This document shows positions 25,041 to 35,698 of a stretch of DNA of 37,382 nt, in pieces. The notes under the pieces are model-generated. The model did no database searches, was not told where the DNA came from, and saw nothing but the letters and a program-made list of their open reading frames with translations. A program made the translations under genes and the position numbers. The DNA lies in the NCBI GenBank assembly GCA_017458265.1, contig JAFTFV010000045.1:1-37382 (forward strand). The letters are read 5' to 3'. Positions within the stretch are counted from its first letter, which is position 1. Each line of letters starts with the position of its first letter. This stretch comes from Bacteroidales bacterium. Its GTDB lineage: Bacteria > Bacteroidota > Bacteroidia > Bacteroidales > UBA932.

Positions 25041-26460
25041 AAATCCACTCAAACAACTGGCGGGAGAAACCGCCATCTACGGATTCAGTTCCATCCTTGC
25101 CAGGGTGCTGAATTTCCTCTTCGTCCCCATTTACACACGTATGCTCACGCAGGTGCAGTACGGAGTGGTAACGGAATTCATGGCATACATAGCTATCCTG
25201 CAGGTGGTTCTGGTACTTGGGCTGGAGACAGGCTGCTTCCGCTTTGCCAACAAGGAAGGAGAAGACCCGCGCAAGGTATACAGCGGCGCCCTGCTTGCCG
25301 TAACAGGCCTCAACCTGGCGTTCCTCGCATGCATGGTGGCGTTTTCGGATCCCATCTCGGCAGCGCTCGGGTATGCAGGCTACAGGAGCCTTATCATATA
25401 TGTGGCAGCAATCCTGTTCTGCGACAGCATCACGGCAATCCTCTTTGCAAAACTCAGGCAGGAGCACAAGGCTGTGAAATTCGCCGTGCTCAAGAGCGTT
25501 AAGATACTCACTGAGACCGGAGCCAACATCATCCTCTTCTTCGTCTGGCCCAAGAATCCGGATTTCACCTATCCCATCATTGCCATATTCATAAGCTGCA
25601 TACTGTGCCTGGTGCTTTTCATACCGGATATCATGAAGCTCAGGCTCACCTGGGACGGAAAGCTGGTGAAGAGGATGCTGGCCTATTCGCTTCCGCTCAT
25701 GATTGCCGCGCTTCCAGGCGTTGCCAACGACTTCCTGGACAGGGTGCTCTTCCGCTATTTCGATACCTCTTCCGAGGCCTGGCGCGCTTCCCTGGGCGTT
25801 TATCAGGCAGCCGTGAAGCTTGCCGTCATAATGAACCTCTTCATCCAGATGTTCCGGTATGCGGCCGAACCGTTCTTCTTCCAGAGGGCCAAGGACAAGG
25901 GCTCAAAGGAATTCTATGCAACGGTCATGGAGTATTTCACCGCCTTCTGCGGCCTTGTGCTGCTTGGCGTCGTGGGTTATATCGACATAATCTCCCTCAT
26001 CCTTGGAAAGGACTTCAGGATAGGCGTTGGTGTTGTGCCGATAATGCTTCTCAGCTACATGATCCTGGGAATGCTGTTCAATGTTTCCATGTGGTACAAG
26101 CTCTCCGGAAAGACCAACATGGCCATCTGGATAACCCTTGCCGGCCTTGCCGTAACGGCGGTGGTGAACGTAGTGTTCATGCCGCGCTTCTCCTACTGGG
26201 CATCGGCCTTCGGGCATCTTGCGAGCTACACGGTGATGTTTATCCTGAGCGCTTCGCTGGGCGCGAAATACTATCCCATCCCCTATAAATGGGGCCGGCT
26301 GGGACTGTTCTTCCTCCTGATGGGCGCCGCGCTTGCCGGAATGTATCTCATCCCCGCAGGCGGAGAGGGCGTTCACTGGGTGAACATCGGCCTCAATACC
26401 GTTCTCATTTTGGCCTATGCCGGCCTTTCGTGGATGATACTGAGAAGGAGGAAAGCATGA
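25033..26460 (+). CDS. MOP-superfamily polysaccharide flippase (Wzx/MATE-like)
   Basis: 475 residues with about 12-14 hydrophobic segments over the whole length and no other domain. The N terminus (GETAIYGFSSILARVLNFLFVPIYTRMLT) is the characteristic first helix pair of O-antigen/oligosaccharide flippases, and LPGVANDFLDRVLFRYF in the middle resembles the second half of the MOP fold. It would move lipid-linked oligosaccharides across the inner membrane for LPS or capsule synthesis. No glycosyltransferases are nearby, so its pathway partners are elsewhere. The stop overlaps the start of the next gene (ATGA). Confidence 0.88.
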   Translation: MAKNPLKQLAGETAIYGFSSILARVLNFLFVPIYTRMLTQVQYGVVTEFMAYIAILQVVLVLGLETGCFRFANKEGEDPRKVYSGALLAVTGLNLAFLACMVAFSDPISAALGYAGYRSLIIYVAAILFCDSITAILFAKLRQEHKAVKFAVLKSVKILTETGANIILFFVWPKNPDFTYPIIAIFISCILCLVLFIPDIMKLRLTWDGKLVKRMLAYSLPLMIAALPGVANDFLDRVLFRYFDTSSEAWRASLGVYQAAVKLAVIMNLFIQMFRYAAEPFFFQRAKDKGSKEFYATVMEYFTAFCGLVLLGVVGYIDIISLILGKDFRIGVGVVPIMLLSYMILGMLFNVSMWYKLSGKTNMAIWITLAGLAVTAVVNVVFMPRFSYWASAFGHLASYTVMFILSASLGAKYYPIPYKWGRLGLFFLLMGAALAGMYLIPAGGEGVHWVNIGLNTVLILAYAGLSWMILRRRKA

Positions 26461-27002
26461 AAAAGGTGCCTCTGTGGCAGATATTCACGGTCTTTGCGAA
26501 GATAGGAGCCTTCACCATAGGCGGGGGATATGCCATGATACCCCTCATCCAGGCCGAAATGTCCAAACGCGGATGGATTTCGGACGACGAACTGCCGGAC
26601 ATCGTTGCCCTGTCCCAAAGCGCTCCGGGCGTGATGGCGGTGAACATATCCATATTCGCCGGCCATAAGCTGCGCGGCTTCAAGGGCAGCCTTGCCGCAA
26701 CGCTGGGGAGCATCCTCCCGTCCTTTCTCATCATCCTTGCCATAGCGATGTTCTTCACCGCCTTCAAGGACAATCCATGGGTGGAACGAGCATTCAAGGG
26801 CATACGTCCCGTGGTGATTTCGCTCATAGCCGTGCCCATGATAAACATGGCCAAGAAGTCCTGCAAGAGCTGGTGGGCCTGGGGGCTCGCCATTGCCTCG
26901 CTGGTATTGGTGGCGTTTCTGAACGTTTCTCCGATATACATCATCATCTGTGTGATTGTGATTGGGTTCAGCATAACTTATTTCAAGGGGCGGACGGAAT
27001 GA
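26457..27002 (+). CDS. Chromate transporter family protein, half-size subunit 1
   Basis: 181 residues from the ATG at 26457, which overlaps the flippase stop. The longer frame starting at 26289 is inside the flippase gene. It contains the CHR-family signature FTIGGGYAMIPLIQAEM and the SQSAPGVMAVNISIFAGHKLRG segment, plus about six membrane segments. It is one half of the ChrA fold. The second half is encoded by the next gene, again with an ATGA overlap, and the two subunits presumably assemble. Family members export chromate in some bacteria. In anaerobes the physiological anion is uncertain. Confidence 0.92.
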   Translation: MKKVPLWQIFTVFAKIGAFTIGGGYAMIPLIQAEMSKRGWISDDELPDIVALSQSAPGVMAVNISIFAGHKLRGFKGSLAATLGSILPSFLIILAIAMFFTAFKDNPWVERAFKGIRPVVISLIAVPMINMAKKSCKSWWAWGLAIASLVLVAFLNVSPIYIIICVIVIGFSITYFKGRTE

Positions 27003-27601
27003 CAGTGGTTTATCTCATACTCCAGCTTGCCTGGACATTCTTCGTGATAGGGGCTTTCACTATCGGCGGTGGATATGCCATGCTGTCCCTCATCCAGAAC
27101 CAGGTGGTAGTTGTGCACCCCTGGATTACCGAGAGCGCCTTCACGGACATAGTCGCAGTTTCCCAGATGACACCCGGGCCGATTGGCATCAACAGCGCCA
27201 CATACGTAGGCTATGACGTGCTGTACGGCGCAACCGGAAGCCATATTCTTGGCATCTGCGGCTCGCTCACGGCAACTCTCTCGCTCATGCTGCCGTCGTT
27301 CGTCATCATGCTTCTCATCGTGAAGTTCTACCAGAAATTCAAAACGAGCACGCTCTACAGCGGCACCATGGCCTTCCTGAGGCCAAGCGTTGTGGGACTC
27401 ATCGGCGCCGCAGCAGTCATTCTCATACTCAAGACCACCTGGACCGGCATGACGCCATCCGTGCAGGTAGTGACCGAAAACTTCCCCGACTGGAAAAGCT
27501 GGTGTCTCCTTGGCGGAGCATTCGTCGCCGGCTACTGGGGAAAGGTCAATCCCATATATATCATTCTTGCCGGCGCCGCCCTTGGCCTCCTCCTGTACTG
27601 A
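26999..27601 (+). CDS. Chromate transporter family protein, half-size subunit 2
   Basis: 200 residues from the ATG at 26999, which overlaps the TGA of subunit 1. Longer frames start within subunit 1. The same signature recurs (FTIGGGYAMLSLIQNQV, SQMTPGPIGINSATYVGYD), followed by hydrophobic segments up to a C terminus ending in LGLLLY. Pairs of short CHR proteins in tandem are the known alternative to the single long ChrA. The gene ends the + strand operon begun by the flippase; a repeat-rich 142-bp spacer separates it from the convergent GH20 gene. Confidence 0.92.
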   Translation: MTVVYLILQLAWTFFVIGAFTIGGGYAMLSLIQNQVVVVHPWITESAFTDIVAVSQMTPGPIGINSATYVGYDVLYGATGSHILGICGSLTATLSLMLPSFVIMLLIVKFYQKFKTSTLYSGTMAFLRPSVVGLIGAAAVILILKTTWTGMTPSVQVVTENFPDWKSWCLLGGAFVAGYWGKVNPIYIILAGAALGLLLY

Positions 27602-33680: not shown

Positions 33681-33712
33681 TGCACTTTTTTTCATAAAAC
33701 TGACGGTCCGGA

Positions 33713-33744
33713 TTTGCACAAAAGCGCCCGGATTGCTATTTTTG
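33713..33744 (+). promoter_or_regulatory. Bacteroidota-type promoter of the Na/Pi-PhoU-winged-helix gene
   Basis: TTTG (33713-33716), a 20-bp spacer and TATTTTTG (33737-33744) match the consensus exactly. The -7 box ends 4 bases before the ATG at 33749, so the transcript would be leaderless or nearly so. Confidence 0.78.
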
Positions 33745-33748
33745 CAAA

Positions 33749-35698
33749 ATGATTCTTACTCTCCTGAAACTCCTAGGCTGCATCGCCCTTCTCATGTATG
33801 GCATGAAGGTGATGAGCGAAGCCCTGCAGAAAATGGCAGGCCCCGGTCTCCGTCATATACTTGGCGCCATGACAACTAACCGCTTCACCGGCGTTCTTAC
33901 CGGTATGCTCGTATGCGTGGCCGTCCAGTCATCGGCAGCAACCACCCTCATGACGGTGTCATTCGTAAATGCCGCGCTCCTGAGTCTTGCACAGGCCATT
34001 TCGGTGATTATGGGTGCAAACATCGGCACTACGCTGTCGGCCTGGATCATGTCGGCGGGATTCTCCTTCAACATCACCAACCTGGTGTGGCCGGTCTTCC
34101 TGGTGGCTGTGGTTCTCATCCAGTCCAGGAAGCGGAGGTATCTGGGAGACTTCCTCTTCGGCCTTGGTTTCATGTTCTTCGCGCTGGGTACGCTCAATGC
34201 CACAGGCCGTGAGATGGACCTTGCAAACAACGCCGGAGTGGTGAATTTCTTCTCTTCATTCGATTCGGGAAGCTACTGGACCATACTGCTGTTCATACTC
34301 ATAGGCTCCATCCTAACTTTCATGGCGCAGTCATCGGCAGCGCTTATGGCAATTACCATGGTCCTCTGCACCAGCGGCGTGCTCACAATATATCAGGGTA
34401 TAGCGCTTGTCATGGGCGAGAACATCGGCACGACGCTCACTGCGAATATAGCGGCGCTGTCGGCAAATACGCAGGCAAGGAGGGCTGCGCTGGCGCATCT
34501 GGTGTTCAACGTTTTCGGCGTCCTGTGGGTGCTGGTGGTGTTCTATCCCTTCGTCAACACGGCCTGCCGCATAGTTGATGTAGACCCCCATGCCGACGTG
34601 GTGAATCCCGCAAGGCTCTCCTTCGTCCTTGCCATGTTCCACACCATGTTCAATGTCACCAACACCCTCATCCTCATCTGGTTCATCCCTCAGATTGAGA
34701 AGTTCGTGAGTAAGCTCATCCCCCAGAAGGCCGCAGACGAAGGCTTCAAGCTGCAGTACATTCAGCTGGGCATCATGAAGACTCCGGAAATCGCCGTCTT
34801 CCAGGCCCAGAAGGAAACGGAACTCTTTGCCGAAAGGATGCGCGGCATGTTTGCCGAAGTACGTGAACTCTACTCCATCACCGATGCCGACGCCTTCGAG
34901 AAGAAGGTCCTCCGCATAAAGGAAATGGAGGAAATGAGCGACCGCCTCGAAAGCGAAATCGGCGGATACCTTGCCCAGGTAGGTGATGCCCACCTCAGTG
35001 ACGACACCAAGCGCAAGGTGCGCAGCCTCCTCCGTGAGGTGAGCGAGCTGGAAAGCATCGGCGACAGCCTCTTCAACCTTTCCCGCACCATGGACCGCAA
35101 GCACAGCCAGAAGGCCGTCTTCACCGCCAGCCAGGAACAGGGAATTGCCGATATGTTCGGCCTCCTGGACGGCGCCATGTCCAGCATGGAAGCCGTTCTC
35201 AAGGGAACCGGCGACTACGAGACCTCCCAGGACTTCGAGAACCAGATCGACGCCCTCCGCAATGCCCTCAGGGCCAAGAATACTGCCGATGTCGATGACA
35301 ATGTCTATAGCTTTGCAGTGGGCACCATCTTCATCGACCTGGTACGGGAATGCGAAAAGTGCGGCGACTACGTCATGAACGTCGTCGAGGCCAAGCTTGG
35401 CAAGAGGGACAACGCCCCCGAAACAGGCTCCCTGCACATCGACACGGTCCAGAAAACCGCTTCCGTGAACGGTCAGGTGCTTGACCTCACCAAGGCCGAA
35501 TTCGAGCTCCTGAGCCTCTTCGTCTCCAACCCCGGAAGAGTGTTCTCACGCGAGGAACTCATCGAACTCGTATGGCCCAAGGATGCACTTGCCGGAGAAC
35601 GCGAAGTGGATCCCAGTGTGCGCGAAATCCGCTCCAAACTGGGCGCTCTGGCAGAGCATTTCCGCACCCGTGCCGGCTACGGTTACTATTACGAGTAG
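33749..35698 (+). CDS. Na/phosphate cotransporter-PhoU protein with C-terminal OmpR/PhoB-type DNA-binding domain
   Basis: 649 residues. Residues about 1-320 are a Na/Pi cotransporter (NptA/PF02690-type) with two inverted QSSAA repeats (VQSSAATTLM and MAQSSAALMA) and two GxNIGTTL motifs (MGANIGTTLSAW, MGENIGTTLTAN). Residues about 345-550 form PhoU-like helices with long heptad-like segments. Residues about 561-649 are a complete winged helix of the response-regulator type: LDLTKAEFELLSLFVSNPGR, VFSREELIELVW, REVDPSVREIRSKLG and RTRAGYGYYYE. There is no receiver domain. The PhoU and winged-helix parts should both be cytoplasmic. A membrane-tethered, phosphate-responsive DNA-binding transporter is inferred; the frame is continuous with no sign of a frameshift. 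It has its own strong promoter. Confidence 0.9.
   Translation: MILTLLKLLGCIALLMYGMKVMSEALQKMAGPGLRHILGAMTTNRFTGVLTGMLVCVAVQSSAATTLMTVSFVNAALLSLAQAISVIMGANIGTTLSAWIMSAGFSFNITNLVWPVFLVAVVLIQSRKRRYLGDFLFGLGFMFFALGTLNATGREMDLANNAGVVNFFSSFDSGSYWTILLFILIGSILTFMAQSSAALMAITMVLCTSGVLTIYQGIALVMGENIGTTLTANIAALSANTQARRAALAHLVFNVFGVLWVLVVFYPFVNTACRIVDVDPHADVVNPARLSFVLAMFHTMFNVTNTLILIWFIPQIEKFVSKLIPQKAADEGFKLQYIQLGIMKTPEIAVFQAQKETELFAERMRGMFAEVRELYSITDADAFEKKVLRIKEMEEMSDRLESEIGGYLAQVGDAHLSDDTKRKVRSLLREVSELESIGDSLFNLSRTMDRKHSQKAVFTASQEQGIADMFGLLDGAMSSMEAVLKGTGDYETSQDFENQIDALRNALRAKNTADVDDNVYSFAVGTIFIDLVRECEKCGDYVMNVVEAKLGKRDNAPETGSLHIDTVQKTASVNGQVLDLTKAEFELLSLFVSNPGRVFSREELIELVWPKDALAGEREVDPSVREIRSKLGALAEHFRTRAGYGYYYE

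Follow-up and report, generated by a model that had tools for sequence, protein, structure and literature searches.

A Bacteroidales Na/phosphate symporter joined to PhoU and a PhoB-type DNA-binding domain, a candidate one-component transporter regulating its own gene

One-component regulators of the CadC and ToxR layout carry an N-terminal winged helix, a single membrane pass and a periplasmic sensor. In E. coli, the phosphate-sufficiency signal passes via Pst, PhoU and the kinase PhoR, as described in the available portions of PMC4415409 and PMC6978683. The accessible text of PMC13170248 describes S. aureus NptA, where nptA was more strongly expressed at intermediate phosphate once the PhoU domain had been deleted, although PitR is the dominant regulator; the PhoU tree in that text excluded Na_Pi_cotrans proteins. 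In Bacteroidota, PhoB of B. fragilis (BF1576) binds the pst operon and is required for it, according to the part of PMC3547664 at hand. Transporters have also been found fused to signalling outputs, namely the SLC5 transporter-histidine kinase transceptors CbrA and CrbS (cf. PMC7096432, PMC13022988 and PMC5715377).

In the literature searched, which covered few subscription papers, no description of a transporter-PhoU-winged-helix protein was found. Such a protein is encoded in the window, the whole 37,382-nucleotide stretch of Bacteroidales DNA analysed here. It resembles S. aureus NptA in having a transporter and PhoU, a domain contributing to phosphate control, on one chain, but NptA acts on a separate PhoPR whereas here the PhoB-type DNA-binding domain lies on the same chain (PMC13170248, available text). 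With Bacteroidota PhoB (BF1576, PMC3547664 in part; model NF053854) it shares the DNA-binding half, its fold and, in several fused members, an 11-bp tandem box; unlike PhoB, it has no receiver, would work without phosphorylation and is predicted to be membrane-tethered. The sequence-only reading had likened the protein to CadC or ToxR, and a DNA-binding domain on a one-component membrane protein is indeed common to both (PMC10269533, available portion). The fused winged helix is however C-terminal, behind a complete multi-pass transporter and PhoU, so that the ToxR/CadC layout is a different one. The kinase output of CbrA and CrbS needs a response regulator, while the output here is a DNA-binding domain itself (cf. 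PMC7096432, PMC13022988 and PMC5715377). Membrane one-component regulators as such are known; this one would have a whole transporter as its sensor. The features of the fused gene are as follows.

33749..35698, + strand: fused gene for a Na/Pi symporter-PhoU-PhoB-type winged helix, 649 aa (ORF, Pfam, NCBIfam)
33752..34729, + strand: Na/Pi symporter, residues 2-327 (TIGR00704)
34784..35398, + strand: PhoU domain, delimited by the helices of the model to residues 346-550 (PF01895, PhoU fold)
35399..35428, + strand: linker of residues 551-560 (mean pLDDT of the block 59, a low confidence)
35429..35695, + strand: winged helix, residues 561-649 (PF00486, NF053854, PhoB effector fold)
35597..35659, + strand: recognition helix region, residues 617-637, with Glu626 at PhoB Arg201 and Arg628 at Arg203 (alignment, model)

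The frame starts with ATG and runs through 649 codons with no internal stop, in agreement with the single uninterrupted frame proposed from the sequence. Three Pfam models exceeded their cut-offs in the fused protein, Na_Pi_cotrans (178.1 bits vs 29.1), PhoU (28.5 vs 23.5) and Trans_reg_C (62.6 vs 26.2, residues 575-647), and the NCBIfam Na/Pi-cotransporter II-related model gave 223.8 against 210.1. Residues 555-649 by themselves, the segment that had been singled out for an HMM search, matched Trans_reg_C with 66.9 bits. The C terminus aligned to positions 130-225 of the 225 of the Bacteroidota PhoB model NF053854 with 88 bits, the cut-off of 270 being set for whole PhoB and not for the DNA-binding half alone; by these model positions, that half is all that the fused protein keeps of PhoB. 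The QSS and NIGTT motifs of both symporter repeats, as well as the ExxxD motifs of PhoU (E435/D439 and E536/D540), were invariant in 40 of 40 aligned fused proteins (the window protein plus 39 taken from the 49 fused loci described below), and the complete cotransporter and PhoU region described earlier were thus borne out. The ExxxD motifs have a metal role in PhoU.

The AlphaFold model of the fused protein had a mean pLDDT of 77.8 and a pTM of 0.47, and its C-terminal blocks, at pLDDT 77-86 except for one at 62, contained winged-helix elements at 562-648. In Foldseek, the top chain was the PhoB effector domain 1gxq, closely followed by its complex with pho-box DNA, 1gxp (best E 3.6e-4, target-normalised TM 0.81-0.83), so the structure prediction suggested for the winged helix also led to PhoB. 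The middle part matched the PhoU structures 2i0m and 1t72 (TM 0.80, E 0.0035 and 0.007), weaker than the E value for PhoB. Further searches of solved structures, PHROGs, Rfam and tRNAs added nothing on function. No PF00072 receiver match was detected by Pfam in the fused protein, nor any receiver or HATPase_c match on the window contig C8, consistent with the earlier statement that no receiver domain and no kinase lie nearby. Domains and model together describe a single chain that has membrane segments as well as a DNA-binding domain, and neither receiver nor kinase; membrane insertion is assumed from membership in the symporter family. As judged from sequence, the symporter and PhoU motifs are intact, a PhoB-type winged helix follows on the same receiver-less chain, and the protein is predicted to carry out sodium-driven phosphate uptake. 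Elsewhere in the window, two adjacent chromate-transporter ORFs (PF02417) were noted at 26289-27601, overlapping when taken from their first start codons.

The distribution of the fusion was surveyed among 346 relatives in named genomes, from which the best 80 were retained by a ranking that favours full-length matches. Among these best 80 of 346, 49 were fused in one frame (one of the fused loci, L053, is interrupted by a contig end), in 3 a separate phoB came after the transporter-PhoU gene, and the other 28 had transporter-PhoU alone; as the ranking prefers full-length matches, 49 of 80 is not to be read as a frequency. The fused copies included those of Prevotella sp. P6B1 (L110) and Bacteroidales KHT7 (L107). 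On the transporter tree (130 rows, after removal of 8 near-duplicate or short rows and of L001 and L018), the fused genes fell in three regions, referred to here as clade A, which includes the window gene, clade B, and the Prevotella-like clade C. The genome G335 holds two classes of the fused gene, L032 and L201, the latter grouping with clade B. The window's genus had the full fused gene in 7 of 37 genomes, twice in G003, and a fragment in an eighth, G025. A search of 295 genomes sampled from all over the Bacteroidales gave the window gene as its only full-length match at E<=1e-100. The architecture seems narrow, belonging to the window's genus and to related, largely rumen-derived Bacteroidales including Prevotella.

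An unfused arrangement of the same parts was found in four loci (L064, L066, L094 and L011 of G016), where nptA-phoU, phoB and phoR are consecutive and share their strand; nptA-phoU and phoB overlap in L064 and are separated by at most 18 nt in L066. Two operon PhoB proteins scored 297 and 286 and passed the NCBI PhoB cut-off of 270. PhoR of L064 covered positions 352-581 of the 583 of the PhoR model with 329 bits, below the cut-off of 500; all three operon PhoR proteins scanned had HisKA and HATPase_c, and PAS and HAMP were absent from the same three (E<=0.01). The operon PhoR is thus short of much of its sensor half, as if the transporter-PhoU protein already gave the signal. The operon is the likely source of the fusion. 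The winged helices of fused and operon proteins clustered with a support of 96/84, and of 96/86 in a second tree. This cluster is not closed to free PhoB, because in a tree with the free PhoB of three more loci added, L190, from a genome with unfused nptA-phoU, joined clade C and L011 (96/90).

On the transporter tree, the operon copies were scattered: next to clade A, close to the base of A+B, and within C. The NptA-PhoU tree, made from 48 chosen rows, rejected a single clade of fused rows (p-AU 5e-6), which the short winged-helix alignment did not (p-AU 0.275). The four operon receivers grouped with 90/86 in a tree holding 19 of the 25 rows asked for and one very long outgroup, and some rows were lost to filters in the later trees. 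L094 stood beside clade A in an early winged-helix tree and did not settle when other rows were used. The junction linkers also differ from clade to clade. From these sequence comparisons, we lean towards repeated fusion, starting from an old operon; a single early fusion followed by many losses, a history we favour less, would also be compatible with the NptA-PhoU tree.

The genome of the window (G000, 97% complete) contained a single Trans_reg_C match, that of the fused protein. A PhoR-like kinase was not found at E<=1e-30, PstC and PHO4/Pit were not found at E<=1e-10, and a second NptA match was not found at E<=0.001. By the models used, the fused protein seems to be the sole dedicated phosphate importer and the sole PhoB-type regulator of this genome. 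Across the 37 genomes of the genus (E<=1e-8), Trans_reg_C was present only as the fused form in 7, as a free form in 12 and not at all in 18, and none had both the fused and the free form. PhoR was present in 10 of the 37 genomes and in 0 of the 7 fused ones; a mutual exclusion of fusion and PhoR was considered and set aside, as these counts, with many genomes incomplete, are no more than suggestive. The absence of PhoBR alongside the fusion could be chance, since as many as 18 of 37 genomes had no Trans_reg_C at that threshold. The pattern in the genus fits the replacement of PhoBR by the fusion, short of proof.

Among 10 further genomes of clades A and B, G335, G338 and G339 had another Trans_reg_C match, which was non-PhoB by eye. 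P6B1 had three other Trans_reg_C proteins, likewise non-PhoB by eye, and neither PstC nor PHO4 was found there (E<=1e-10). Clade C, whose other regulators were inspected in three of 15 genomes, was mixed: the fused genome G363 retains a PhoB-like regulator, and G367 (KHT7) has PstC. Of the sequence-only reading, the recurrence of the architecture in Bacteroidales thus held (49 among the 80 best-ranked of 346 relatives), and so did a possible replacement of PhoR-PhoB as far as the window's genome is concerned, where PhoB, PhoR and Pst were not found by the searches above; a general loss of PhoB did not extend to clade C. A conserved neighbourhood of phosphate genes around the fused gene was considered and set aside, as clustering of the neighbours gave no shared gene order.

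Two other groups of proteins came up in these scans. A PHO4/Pit-type match lies in long frames of 773 and 750 aa in two genomes of the same genus (L271 at G013:C5:84288-85115, and G030:C44:113164-114069), each a short way from phoB and phoR, perhaps another PhoBR-coupled transporter. L187, L192, L195 and L196, all small and from Prevotella-like and related genomes, end in a Trans_reg_C domain and seem by eye to have membrane segments; they resemble another family of membrane-anchored one-component regulators.

The upstream regions of the fused genes carried repeats that differed among the clades. The form YGTAACC-N4-YGTAACC or a near one preceded the clade C genes, with the seed in 20 of 21; some clade B genes had GTTAAAATTCTGTTACAAT-like repeats; in clade A, part had GTTAAAATATTGTTAAA and another part GTTGATAAA or a tandem of GTTGATAAA. 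Pho boxes share this 11-bp tandem geometry (PMC4415409, available text). Because a box model from clade C alone scored most of clade A not above shuffles, the repeat period was tested instead, after removal of near-identical upstream regions. The mean best period-11 repeat near the promoter was, out of 8, 5.20 in clade A (20 genes), 5.83 in B (6) and 6.56 in C (16), compared with a mean of 3.57 for the 28 unfused genes; in the fused sets, means at other periods were 2.6-4.8. Over the whole 110 nt upstream, fused and unfused genes differed at period 11 only, out of eight periods. At least 7 of 8 matches at this period were reached by 24 of 48 fused and 6 of 66 unfused genes (MWU p 6.8e-5, uncorrected for kinship), and by 1 of 32 of the closest unfused relatives; before thinning, 7/8 was reached by 27 and missed by 28 of the 55 fused loci. 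Six phylogenetically independent pairs favoured the link between fusion and repeat (2.1 vs 0.1), which at n=6 was not significant. The box was absent by the repeat measure from three of four operon-type loci. At the level of sequence, many fused genes, unlike their unfused homologues, bear a Pho-box-like 11-bp tandem repeat immediately upstream of their own promoter.

The box preceded the -7 element by approximately 30-37 nt and lay immediately upstream of the -33 element, a place suited to an activator. In 13 genomes (10 of clade C and 3 unfused), the strict box gave 8 matches in 7 clade C genomes, 7 of the 8 at the fused gene itself, while three clade C genomes had none. The reversed pattern gave 5 matches in the same 13 genomes, so the position of the matches rather than their number is informative. 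A wider clade C regulon was not accepted, as 22 one-mismatch matches in four genomes compared with 16 for the reversed pattern and the 4 exact ones lay at the fused gene; two extra clade C sites common to related genomes were discarded as well, being inside long open frames. In the PhoBR-bearing relatives G038 and G056, which account for 2 of 7 pst loci, box-like repeats preceded pst or separated it from a porin-like neighbour gene, and the same scan gave five matches inside coding frames of these loci.

The window gene itself differs in this region, which contains the following features.

33713..33744, + strand: promoter TTTG-N20-TAttTTTG, Bacteroidota-type, near-leaderless (from sequence)
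33691..33698, + strand: TTCATAAA, possible degenerate half-site (weak; by eye)

The near-leaderless promoter noticed earlier was recovered: TTTG-N20-TAttTTTG, which we take to be the Bacteroidota promoter consensus, ends four bases ahead of the ATG and has its single match in the window there (expected 0.20; at least one match in 19 of 100 shuffles). A sigma-70 and terminator scan gave no match at this site. The tandem box is absent from the 110 nt upstream of the gene, and a pattern search of the entire window gave no match either. TTCATAAA lies at roughly the offset that GTTGATAAA has in some relatives, a weak likeness seen by eye.

The residues facing DNA were compared at positions 197, 198, 201 and 204 of E. 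coli PhoB, which are presumably the base-contacting ones, the Arg at 201 included. Arg occupied position 201 in all 21 clade C rows and all 4 operon PhoB, as well as in 6 of the 7 free PhoB-like rows, and clade A had His in 9, Asp in 8, Arg in 4, Glu in 3 and Gln in 1. The four positions were invariant in clade C except for 198 and average in clade B. Their mean entropy in clade A was 2.21, compared with 0.19 for buried positions, and random sets of four reached 2.21 in 0.4% of cases. The DNA-facing residues are thus most variable in clade A, with its changing box, where they rank among the most variable parts of the domain, and near-invariant in clade C, with its fixed one. Clade A genes with Val-Asn...Arg/His (L034, L035, L039 and, in part, L037) had GTTAAA boxes, and the eight with Asp (Glu in L047), the window pair excepted, all had GTTGATAAA. 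By these alignments, the recognition residues change together with the box across relatives, although common descent of those eight close relatives may explain part of the covariation. The window protein has Pro-Ser...Glu at the recognition positions. Of the winged helix said to show all core signatures, the PhoB-type domain was therefore upheld, whereas the recognition helix is altered, with Glu626 in the place of Arg201.

We consider it somewhat more probable than not that this protein is a PhoU-gated, self-regulating one-component transporter, in which a sodium-driven phosphate importer brings along both its regulator and its transcription factor. According to this reading, an nptA-phoU / phoB / phoR operon would have lost its kinase and receiver, and the DNA-binding half of PhoB would have joined the PhoU end. 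A change of transport state would alter PhoU and thereby expose or pair the winged helices, two per 11-bp tandem repeat, the pairing perhaps being provided by an oligomer of the transporter or of PhoU. When phosphate is short, the protein would bind upstream of its own -33 element and activate its own synthesis; when phosphate flows, PhoU would keep the winged helix off DNA. This would be a private feedback loop operating without phosphorylation, whose direction is deduced from the position of the box as its sole basis. In the window's lineage, the winged-helix fold would have been kept while the DNA-facing residues changed, and the present target may differ. The full combination, in which an ion-coupled transporter is the transcription factor of its own gene, arose perhaps at least three times by fusion from the operon, has its DNA binding gated by PhoU and, in the window, directs its recognition helix to a new target, is put forward tentatively.

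In the window's lineage, the winged helix could instead be a decaying passenger on a protein working as transporter and PhoU only, which we regard as unlikely. The missing box and the Glu at the Arg201 position would fit such decay, as would the fast change of the domain: between the window and L032, dN of the winged helix was 0.135 compared with 0.017 for the rest, 7.9-fold (0.6-8.0 over 19 pairs). The dS of this segment (35429-35695) was also about three times higher, 0.93 vs 0.28, a hint of local recombination. The clade A relatives L054-L057 have no winged helix, and L054, which has 82% identity to the window protein, stops at residue 558. Directly past its stop (L054:7074-7130) lie codons like the end of a winged helix, a probable secondary loss of the domain. 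Against decay, the omega of the winged helix was 0.146 in the window pair (0.041-0.267 across 19 pairs), the fused frame is retained in 25 of 29 clade A rows, and the low entropy of buried positions beside the high entropy of DNA-facing ones is a pattern like changed specificity and not general decay.

A self-regulating transporter gated by PhoU also has to be set against a winged helix binding DNA without phosphate gating, as a constitutive autorepressor, an anchor or a proteolytically freed regulator, which we hold to be improbable. Membrane-bound regulators released by cleavage exist, and the linker is low in model confidence; the box upstream of the -33 element, however, suits an activator, and the PhoU domain of NptA affects the phosphate response of S. 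aureus (PMC13170248, accessible text). Cross-talk from a separate kinase or receiver is very improbable: the genome has 8 receiver and 13 HATPase_c matches, none on the window contig, but the fused protein offers no receiver to phosphorylate and no PhoR-like kinase was found at the above threshold. An assembly or frameshift artefact, conceivable in a 67-contig assembly, is already refuted, because full-length fused relatives occur across many other assemblies (49 of the 80 loci).

In the PhoU-gated reading, the fused importer may control gene expression directly, apparently replacing a separate sensor and regulator. The relatives show an apparent intermediate, the operon with its shortened PhoR, together with secondary losses, and may outline a possible route from two components to one. 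How a phosphate importer and PhoU report phosphate sufficiency to the cell is a long-standing question; with the kinase and receiver gone and PhoU joined to the output, the effect of PhoU could here be read directly as DNA binding.
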